The notes under the pieces were generated by a model, which did no database searches, was not told the DNA's origin, and saw nothing but the letters and a program-made list of their open reading frames with translations. DNA of 41,464 nucleotides from an uncultured Clostridia bacterium. GTDB taxonomy: Bacteria; Bacillota; Clostridia; TANB77; CAG-508. This document shows positions 5,257-26,019 of this stretch, piece after piece (positions within the stretch are counted from its first letter, which is position 1; the number at the start of each line of letters is the position of its first letter). The stretch is taken from positions 1 through 41,464 of the forward strand of contig CANPZM010000010.1 of assembly GCA_947589065.1 (NCBI GenBank), read 5' to 3'. The translations under genes were made by a program, and so were the position numbers.

Positions 5257-5398
5257 GAACAAAAGCGAACATTATTAACATTTTCGCTATTTATGACATT
5301 TTAAAGTCCGCTTTTTTGTTCGTCCGCGAAAAATTGTTTAACAATTTTTATGTGGAATGGTTTATATTATAGAAGTTCAGAGAACTTTCCTATAATAC
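5257..5398 (+). repeat. Three-hairpin intergenic element, copy A
   Basis: Copy A of the ~145-nt family. Stem 1 is GAACAAA paired with TTTGTTC, but the inner arm is GCGAAC instead of GCGGAC, which weakens its pairing with GTCCGC. Stem 2 is AAAAATTGTT/AACAATTTTT. Stem 3 is a TATATTATAG-type hairpin with a GTTC/GAAC tip. The 3' end directly abuts the A-run that is the T-run of the minus-strand terminator at 5399-5427. Confidence 0.85.
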
Positions 5399-5427
5399 AA
5401 AAAAGAGACACAATGTGTCCCTTTTTT
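5399..5427 (-). terminator. Rho-independent terminator of the surface-protein operon
   Basis: The hairpin pairs GGGACACA with TGTGTCTC (one G-T pair) and is flanked by A6 and T6 on both sides. It lies 95 bases downstream of the stop of the 1709-aa gene and could act in both directions. Confidence 0.8.
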
Positions 5428-16030: not shown

Positions 16031-16174
16031 GAACAAAAGCGGACATTATTATCATTTTTGTTATTTATAACATTTTAAAGTCCGCGTCTTTGTTCGTCCG
16101 CGAAAAATTGCAAAAGCAATTTTTCTGTGCAATGCTTTATATTATAGGAAGTTCAGAGAACTTTCCTATAATAT
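16031..16174 (+). repeat. Three-hairpin intergenic element, copy B
   Basis: Stem 1 is GAACAAA/TTTGTTC plus GCGGAC/GTCCGC, with the asymmetric GTC bulge on the 3' side. Stem 2 is AAAAATTGC/GCAATTTTT with an AAAA loop. Stem 3 is TATATTATAGGAAGTTC with its complement. The 3' end abuts the A-run of the rsmA terminator. Confidence 0.85.
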
Positions 16175-16209
16175 AAAAAAACAAACCCCAGATTTTTCTG
16201 CGATTTGTT
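16175..16209 (-). terminator. Terminator of rsmA
   Basis: On the minus strand AACAAA and CAGA pair with TCTG and TTTGTT around an A-rich loop, followed by T7. The stem is imperfect, with a mismatch in the middle. Confidence 0.6.
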
Positions 16210-20101: not shown

Positions 20102-20247
20102 GAACAAAAGTGGACATTTTTAACATTTTCACTATATATGACATTTTAAAGTCCGCGTCTTTGTTCGTCCGCGAAAAATTACTAAAGTAATTTTTCTGTG
20201 GAATGTAAATTTATTCTATAATAGGAAAGTAGAACTTTCCTATTATA
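20102..20247 (+). repeat. Three-hairpin element, copy C1 (tandem array)
   Basis: First of three head-to-tail copies with a period of exactly 146 bases. Stem 1 is GAACAAA/TTTGTTC and GTGGAC/GTCCGC, giving a T-G wobble on the plus strand. Stem 2 is AAAAATTACT/AGTAATTTTT. Stem 3 is TTCTATAATAGGAAAGT with its perfect complement. Confidence 0.9.
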
Positions 20248-20393
20248 GAACAAAAGCGGACATTTTTAACATTTTCACTATATATGACATTTTAAAGTCC
20301 GCGTCTTTGTTCGTCCGCGAAAAATTACTAAAGTAATTTTTCTGTGGAATGTAAATTTATTCTATAATAGGAAAGTAGAACTTTCCTATTATA
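20248..20393 (+). repeat. Three-hairpin element, copy C2 (tandem array)
   Basis: Nearly identical to C1; the visible difference is GCGGAC instead of GTGGAC in stem 1, restoring a full Watson-Crick pair. Such similarity implies a recent tandem duplication. The 3' arm of the C1 stem 3 runs straight into the GAAC that opens C2. Confidence 0.9.
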
Positions 20394-20546
20394 GAACAAA
20401 AGCGGACATTTTTAACATTTTCACTATATATGACATTTTAAAGTTTGCGTCCATTGTTCGCCGCAAAAATTTCTTTAGAAATTTTGTGTGAATTTTTAGC
20501 AAAGCTTTTATATAATAGGAATGTTCGGAGAACTTTCCTATTATAT
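20394..20546 (+). repeat. Three-hairpin element, copy C3 (tandem array, diverged 3' half)
   Basis: The 5' half matches C2, but the 3' arm of stem 1 is GTTTGC, which still pairs with GCGGAC through two G-U wobbles. Stem 2 is AAAATTTC/GAAATTTT. An extra small hairpin (AGCAAAGCT) precedes stem 3. The 3' end abuts the rpsR terminator A-run. Confidence 0.85.
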
Positions 20547-20592
20547 AAAAAAACGTTTGAAATTTTTCTAAATTAATTTCAAACGTTTTTTT
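20547..20592 (-). terminator. Terminator of the rpsF-ssb-rpsR operon
   Basis: AACGTTTGAAATT pairs with AATTTCAAACGTT, with A-run and T-run on both sides. It could stop transcription from either direction. Confidence 0.9.
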
Positions 20593-21750: not shown

Positions 21751-21896
21751 TACAAGAAAAACTTATATTTTTTAGCATTTTCGCTATTTATGATATTTTA
21801 AAGTCCGCGTCTTTGTTCGTCCGCGAAAAATTGTATAACAATTTTTCTGTGGAATGCTTTATATTATAGGAAGTTCAGAGAACTTTCCTATAATAT
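21751..21896 (+). repeat. Three-hairpin element, copy D (5' arm decayed)
   Basis: The 3' two thirds match copy G closely, including stem 2 (AAAAATTGT/ACAATTTTT) and stem 3. The 5' arm has decayed (ACAAGAAAAACTT replaces GAACAAAAGCGGAC), so stem 1 cannot form. It runs head-to-tail into copy E. Confidence 0.75.
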
Positions 21897-22063
21897 AACA
21901 AATCTCGCTTCGTGAGACCTTTTTTTATTTTTTAACTCTTTCTACTTATATTTAAGGTCTCAAAGAAGCGTAAAGATTTGTTGTCGCGAAAAATTGCTTT
22001 AGCAATTTTTCTGTGCAATGTAAGTTTTTTATATAATAGGAAAGTAAAATTTTCCTATTATAT
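21897..22063 (+). repeat. Three-hairpin element, copy E (replaced first stem)
   Basis: Stem 1 has a different sequence but the same layout. AACAAATCT (21897-21905) pairs with AGATTTGTT (21974-21982), CGCTTC (21906-21911) with GAAGCG (21965-21970), and TGAGACC (21913-21919) with GGTCTCA (21956-21962). That is 22 bp, with a 3-nt bulge on the 3' side as in other copies and a 36-nt loop against 35 in copy G. Stem 2 is AAAAATTGCT/AGCAATTTTT. Stem 3 is TTTTATATAATAGGAAA with its complement. It abuts the ppiB-type gene's terminator. Confidence 0.8.
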
Positions 22064-22113
22064 AAAAAAGTCAACCCAACTTGTTAAGTTTTTATATAAC
22101 AAATTAGGTTGAT
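22064..22113 (-). terminator. Terminator of the cyclophilin gene
   Basis: TCAACCTAATTTGTTA pairs with TAACAAGTTGGGTTGA (two mismatches), followed on the minus strand by T6. Confidence 0.8.
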
Positions 22114-24394: not shown

Positions 24395-24536
24395 GAACAA
24401 AAGCGGACATTATTAATGTTTTCGCTATCTATGGTATTTTAAAGTCCGCGTCTTTGTTCGTCCGCGAAAAATTGTATAATAATTTTTCTGTGGAATCCTT
24501 TATATTATAGAAGTTCAGAGAACTTCCTCATAATAT
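24395..24536 (+). repeat. Three-hairpin element, copy F (inside a 5' leader)
   Basis: Full copy: stem 1 is GAACAAA/TTTGTTC and GCGGAC/GTCCGC. Stem 2 is AAAAATTGT/ATAATTTTT with a G-T wobble on the plus strand. Stem 3 is slightly damaged (CCTCATAATAT). It is the only copy read in its own orientation as the leader of a gene; the SD of that gene (AGGAG) begins about 15 bases after stem 3. Confidence 0.85.
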
Positions 24537-24564
24537 AAAAAAAATAGATTAGGAGAAACATCAA

Positions 24565-25832: not shown

Positions 25833-25975
25833 GAACAAAAGCGGACATTATTAGCATTTTCGCTATTTATGACATTTTAAAGTCCGCGTCTTTGTTCGTC
25901 CGCGAAAAATTGTATAACAATTTTTCTGTGGAATGCTTTATATTATAGAAGTTCAAAGAACTTTCCTATAATATA
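25833..25975 (+). repeat. Three-hairpin element, copy G
   Basis: A clean consensus copy. Stem 1 is GAACAAA/TTTGTTC plus GCGGAC (25841-25846)/GTCCGC (25882-25887) with a 35-base loop. Stem 2 is AAAAATTGT/ACAATTTTT. Stem 3 is TATATTATAG-type. Just upstream, TTGCAATGTAAAA looks like the remnant of a second copy. It lies about 45 bases downstream of the 53-aa gene on the opposite strand. Confidence 0.9.
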
Positions 25976-26019
25976 ACAAAACAATTGTTAAATCAACTCC
26001 ATTATATTGTTTTAGATTA

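Follow-up and report, generated by a model that had tools for sequence, protein, structure and literature searches.

The locus examined here raises the question of how one copy of a folded, dispersed repeat can carry a different first stem on an otherwise conserved scaffold. The window, a stretch of 41,464 nucleotides from the genome of an uncultured Clostridia bacterium, contains several copies of this repeat, and one of them, copy E, was described in the first-pass annotation as having a wholly replaced stem 1 of unchanged architecture. Either the geometry of stem 1 was thought to be needed or stem 1 was regarded as an exchangeable module.

Structure of copy E and of the other copies in the genome

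Segment-by-segment pairing and the comparison of the fold with shuffled sequences confirmed the 22-bp stem 1 of copy E, both in its pairing and in its coordinates. The stem consists of 9, 6 and 7 bp, with the segments AACAAATCT (21897-21905), CGCTTC (21906-21911) and TGAGACC (21913-21919) pairing with AGATTTGTT (21974-21982), GAAGCG (21965-21970) and GGTCTCA (21956-21962), respectively, with a TAA bulge (21971-21973) on the 3' side and a loop of 36 nt. A 186-nt stretch including copy E yielded a folding energy of -63.7 kcal/mol, compared with -26 ± 3.5 kcal/mol for shuffled sequences (z = -10.7; 0 of 200). The retention of stem 2 and stem 3 was likewise borne out. The replacement of stem 1 turned out to be partial, since the outer six pairs AACAAA/TTTGTT within the outer arms GAACAAAaGCGGAC ... 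GTCCGCgtcTTTGTTC of the consensus copies are identical in copy E and only the inner part of the stem differs. A 3-nt strand is located on the 3' side in both types, although its letters are TAA in copy E and GTC in the consensus copies, where the GTC strand lies opposite one unpaired A. The similarity in loop length (36 versus 35 nt) was correctly noted for copy E but is uninformative, because the loop is unconserved and in relatives ranges from 4 to about 70 nt. The features of copy E and the further copies in the window are listed in Table 1.

Table 1. Repeat copies and associated features in the window.
Feature	Position	Strand	Basis
Copy E, complete E-type element (stem 1, stem 2, stem 3, A-tract)	21897-22069	+	fold; covariance model R1, tail 94.6 bits
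Copy E stem 1, 5' arm	21897-21919	+	fold, covariation
Local hairpin TCTCGCTTCGTGAGA resembling a terminator, with T-tract, in the 5' arm of stem 1; cannot coexist with stem 1	21903-21926	+	1 found, 0.1 expected; covariation
Copy E stem 1, 3' arm with 3-nt TAA bulge	21956-21982	+	fold, covariation
Copy E stem 2 (CGC-GAAAAATTGC / GCAATTTTTC-T-GTG), conserved G-U pair	21985-22015	+	fold, covariation
Copy E stem 3 (AT-rich hairpin of about 20 bp) and A-tract; outer arms covary with right flank	22026-22069	+	fold, covariation
Hairpin followed by T6, adjoining copy E; presumed cyclophilin gene terminator	22071-22113	-	sequence, flank statistics
D-type copy left of E, 5' arm of stem 1 lost, head-to-tail with E	21769-21896	+	sequence comparison
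Three tandem D-type copies, 146-nt period, ending at terminator hairpin 20553-20590	20102-20552	+	
Mosaic D-type copy sharing the linker CAAT with E	16031-16180	+	
D-type copy directly upstream of a + strand DUF3800 gene, without terminator; exception to the terminator rule	24395-24542	+	
D-type copy (consensus)	25833-25980	+	
D-type copy adjoining terminator GAGACACAATGTGTCCCTTTTTT	5257-5404	+	

Searching the genome from which the window derives (1.8 Mb, 96 contigs) with the region by means of BLAST resulted in 92 matches, including E-type copies elsewhere, and a covariance model built on stems 2 and 3 (the tail) detected at least 86 tail copies in this genome at E<1e-8. The pair of D- and E-type copies recurs with an intact D copy on another contig (G000:C26:3755-4056), the whole pair being 96% identical. 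In the tandem array of three D-type copies, two share 99% identity across 146 nt, which argues for a very recent duplication or insertion.

Stem 1 variants, covariation and arm rewriting

The search for other stem 1 variants among relatives, which had been proposed as a check, was performed by extracting and folding the sequences upstream of the tails located by the model. This survey yielded the inner helices GCGGAC, GCAGAC, GTGGACTTT, GTGGCATG (G051), TCTCGCTTC (copy E), CTCGCTTATTTG (G018), CGGAATGCT (G073) and CTGAAAAAAT (G004), several of which are unrelated to each other in sequence; all stand on one outer helix that precedes stems 2 and 3. The outer helix itself covaries (GAACAAA/TTTGTTC, GAACAAT/ATTGTTC, GAACAAC/GTTGTTC and GGACAAAT/ATTTGTC), and the 3' bulge is mostly TAA, GTC or GTA, with 4 nt in a few lineages. 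Moreover, the two main stem 1 types of the window's own genome each occur with both linker/stem-3 subtypes of the tail. The variants on one scaffold and these mosaics both indicate that stem 1 can be exchanged as a module, and recombination between copies would be the simplest account of the mosaic sequences. The alternative that stem 1 geometry is needed is supported only in part. A change of both arms is no proof on its own, because arms are sometimes rewritten as exact complements with the bulges erased, which accounts for some of the two-arm changes.

Some further architectures were observed. A D-type copy just upstream of position 501 in L137 has a stem 1 loop of only 8 nt, so that the 35-nt loop appears to be dispensable for persistence. 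Two E-type units are directly joined in L234:6736-7040 (CAATATTA next to GAACAAATC) without an intervening stem 3, and the part comprising stem 1 and stem 2 can therefore act as a unit of its own. Tails or stem-3 hairpins with another upstream architecture, for example a GAACAACAGTGGACTT stem 1 or GGGAGCGA downstream, are present in L076-L078 (G003) and L084 (G016), which suggests the existence of further, older subfamilies.

The 22 E-type copies compared, which come from several genera, are paired in 96.3% of the pair cells and show two-sided changes in 21 of 55 pairs; these values for pairing and covariation lie above all 500 shuffles (0 of 500) and above every slid control. Part of this covariation may be mutational, since template switching rewrites hairpin arms and, according to published work, both generates hairpins and preserves them (PMC8794818, PMC7202029). 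In L313, the 5' arm of stem 1 complements the 3' arm exactly, with loss of the bulges, and in L082 and L152 an arm of stem 2 was likewise rewritten as the complement of the opposite arm. Additionally, the outer arms of stem 3 pair better with their own right flank than with the flanks of other copies (9.15 versus 7.80 pairs, p<=0.0005). The persistence of the bulge argues against an entirely mutational origin of the covariation. A strand test on one-sided changes (52 G-U versus 32 A-C) points only weakly to an RNA strand.

The 5' arm of copy E also contains a terminator-like site, in which TCTCGCTTCGTGAGA is followed by CCTTTTTTTA. For this local hairpin, 98.3% of the cells are paired and covariation is evident, with a score reached by 0 of 500 shuffles, and in copies with TCTAGC...GCTAGA the local pair is retained and a long-range pair lost. 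The local hairpin (-5.5 kcal/mol) and the long stem (-30.0 kcal/mol) are mutually exclusive. Since the two structures compete, E-type stem 1 might act as a terminator/anti-terminator pair on + strand transcripts; D-type copies are devoid of this arrangement. The reservation that the inverted repeat could be a terminator of another transcript is inapplicable as worded, yet a terminator-like hairpin does reside within E's own 5' arm.

Position beside terminators and distribution in Clostridia

The location of the copies follows a pronounced pattern. A strong hairpin starts at most 8 nt from the right end in 83 of 137 terminal copies; the controls gave 21 of 685 for mononucleotide shuffles and 4-17 of 73 for left flanks. 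In a second set, comprising matches to the E-type pattern in public genomes and sharing a few genomes with the first set, a strong right-flank hairpin was detected in 49 of 73 copies, the corresponding counts being 10 of 67 for left flanks and 5 of 365 for shuffled sequences. The right-hand open reading frame is located on the minus rather than the plus strand in 120 versus 21 cases in the first set and in 51 versus 15 cases in the second. The orientation is therefore fixed, with the stem 3 side facing the terminator of a gene on the opposite strand. The abutted terminator hairpins are unrelated to each other in sequence and thus represent the target and not a part of the element. Purifying selection against other sites could partly contribute to this adjacency. 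The preference on the left side is restricted to A-rich flanks, with an A at position -1 in 61-84% of the copies. In arrays, usually only the last copy has an A-tract and meets the terminator, and copies nest at a shared terminator; the heterogeneous array in the window, consisting of a truncated D copy followed by E, fits repeated insertion at one terminator.

The interval that holds the window's array is bounded by the start of the rpsF-ssb-rpsR genes on one side and by the end of the cyclophilin gene on the other. The corresponding interval is element-free in eight congeners (G001, G002, G005, G007, G008, G010, G011 and G012), with 62-201 nt between the aligned ends and a hairpin at the corresponding place in most of them. 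In G013, this interval contains a different D-type copy that adjoins the terminator of that genome. The same interval of G003 (L331:1171-1522) contains a different, GC-richer structured insertion, GCGAGGGAGAGC...GACTCTCCCGGGAGCGA, flanked by inverted arms of the TTATTTTAGG type, which is possibly another element using the same site. Taken together, the terminator abutment in fixed orientation, the element-free sites in congeners and the nested arrays indicate, as judged from sequence comparison, that the copies are mobile.

Within the taxonomic family of the host, the tail model had matches in 20 of the 59 genomes and in 16 of the 39 genera. In public genomes, at least 116 stretches contain E-type stem 1 together with the junction; almost all belong to metagenome-assembled genomes (MAGs) of uncultured Clostridia, and one is labelled Bacilli. 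The gut MAG Lapin-022_bin51 contains at least 40 E-type copies of 98-99% identity, which argues for recent spread. With E-type copies widespread across genera and so numerous in another MAG, the notion that copy E is a local replacement of the consensus had to be abandoned. The observation on copy E itself is genuine and generalises beyond one copy. Phage and plasmid collections contained no match to the element apart from one viral-labelled contig; the sole E-type junction match within the viral contig collection is L318:11731-11749. At the gathering threshold of Rfam, the window yields only a tRNA, and a known Rfam family over the element was accordingly rejected; relaxed thresholds applied to the element and eight loci returned sub-threshold matches only, with neither a family nor an intron match. 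In the literature on terminator-targeting repeats or insertion sequences, no report of this repeat family was found. Copy E belongs to a large, widespread and apparently uncatalogued family of folded repeats in gut Clostridia.

A search of carriers and non-carriers for a mobilising enzyme with the RVT_1, Y1_Tnp, IS110 and TnpB domains yielded no consistent partner. The RVT_1 domain is absent from G083, G016 and G020 and only partial in G000, and Y1_Tnp has no match in G000, G003 and G083; these absences are no proof because the genomes are drafts. Transposase_20 (IS110) is limited to some carriers and is not located near the element, and TnpB remained below the cut-off in all 16 genomes searched. 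Element ends were not found around the fetched RT, Y1, IS110 and TnpB loci, and no open reading frame indicating an autonomous version was detected inside stem 1 in an inspection of stem distances up to 120 nt. The left end (G)AACAAA and the right end, terminating in TATATAAAAAA, are not inverted repeats of each other. By eye, no shared target duplication was seen; the left flank contributes the A at position -1 and the right flank the A-tract and hairpin.

Candidate mechanisms and relation to known repeats

We favour, with a probability of roughly 0.7, the interpretation that the family represents a BOX-like, non-autonomous, terminator-targeting structured mobile repeat with folds kept by selection, mobilisation in trans and an exchangeable inner stem 1. 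The non-coding unit of 150-180 nt comprises the outer helix GAACAAA/TTTGTTC with the bulge and the variable inner helix (together stem 1), followed by the conserved AT-rich stem 2 and the long AT-rich stem 3 ending in the A-tract. An enzyme provided in trans may recognise the folded single strand, either RNA or ssDNA, and may set new copies at the T-tracts of terminators. Pairing of all three stems would be kept by selection for recognition along with template-switch correction of the arms, so that the inner stem 1 could be swapped or rewritten while the outer helix and the bulge stay. Secondarily, E-type copies may serve as terminator/anti-terminator pairs on + strand transcripts. The more specific combination of a folded single strand as passport, the intrinsic terminator as target, an enzyme class new to such elements and a stem 1 cassette that doubles as a switch in E is doubtful.

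Template-switch (quasi-palindrome) mutation alone, in which replication rewrites arms as complements and both arms are replaced without any selection on geometry, is unlikely as a complete explanation. The rewritten arms of L313, L082 and L152, the match of stem 3 to its own flank and the published mechanism are in its favour, but it would erase the bulge, which persists as TAA, GTC or GTA in nearly all copies and genera, and it leaves unexplained both the reassortment with tail subtypes and the wholly new inner helices, given that the outer helix is constant. A cis-acting regulatory RNA, with the copies acting as attenuators of neighbouring genes and the E type as a switch, would agree with the competition between terminator and long stem, both of them conserved and covarying. 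This proposal is very unlikely, since the neighbouring genes vary, D-type copies lack the switch, the same site is element-free in congeners, and the element lies downstream of the terminator and, at the window locus, upstream of the opposite-strand rpsF.

Two other routes of mobilisation deserve consideration. A SINE-like process, in which the 3' A-tract of a + strand RNA primes reverse transcription on terminator T-tracts, fits the orientation and the T-tract abutment, predicts the newest copy nearest to the terminator and agrees with the occurrence of 5'-truncated copies with intact 3' ends. It is nevertheless quite unlikely in view of the many-copy draft genomes G083, G016 and G020 without reverse transcriptase and of a centre-anchored set in which 3' truncations are at least as frequent as 5' truncations. 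One-sided truncation was rejected as a proof of retro-mobility, as 5'- and 3'-truncated copies both exist. An IS200/IS605-like or RAYT-mobilised palindromic element moving as ssDNA would be consistent with subterminal hairpins, a one-sided fixed target and the lack of a target duplication recognisable by eye, but has only a slim chance of being correct, given the lack of Y1_Tnp in the three draft genomes named above and the sub-threshold TnpB matches; derivation from IS200/IS605 was rejected on these grounds.

The preferred reading as a terminator-targeting mobile repeat adds a large, apparently uncatalogued set of structured repeats to gut Clostridia. It also raises two testable questions, namely how terminators are located by a small non-coding element that has no recognisable ends, and which share of repeat covariation is due to selection and which to template-switch correction. 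Covarying repeats, if read naively, can be mistaken for riboswitch-like regulators.

Group IIC introns insert directly 3' of intrinsic terminators in fixed orientation. The Clostridia element resembles them in its position beside terminators and in its orientation, according to the counts of flank hairpins and strands, but it differs in its size of 150-180 nt, in the absence of intron domains and of any Rfam match and in the occurrence of several carriers without reverse transcriptase. A group II intron was rejected because the window and the eight loci gave no Rfam intron match. The palindromic, dispersed copies in mosaic arrays are reminiscent of REP/BIME sequences (RAYT), from which they are distinguished by the three-hairpin unit; REP/BIME was discarded since Y1 transposase was not found in the same three drafts. 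MITEs are likewise short, AT-rich, non-coding, dispersed and structured, whereas the present element has no terminal inverted repeats and no target duplication seen by eye; a MITE of a DDE transposase was dismissed because the ends are not inverted repeats of each other. Like the SPRITE elements of S. pneumoniae, the element is a structured repeat near the 3' ends of genes, but SPRITE is itself terminator-like (PMC3049150), whereas the Clostridia element abuts unrelated, pre-existing terminators. As modular structured interspersed repeats, the BOX elements of Streptococcus, which are composed of boxA, boxB and boxC, with boxE and boxF ends around boxB modules in S. suis (PMC3049150), are the nearest known kind when compared by description. 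Both are small, structured and dispersed intergenic repeats of high copy number, over-represented between convergent genes, with exchangeable modules and no proven mobiliser. In comparison with the published description of BOX, the Clostridia element is distinguished by another host lineage, by three hairpins with the outer helix GAACAAA/TTTGTTC and a 3-nt bulge, by its one-sided, oriented abutment to intrinsic terminators and by nested head-to-tail arrays.
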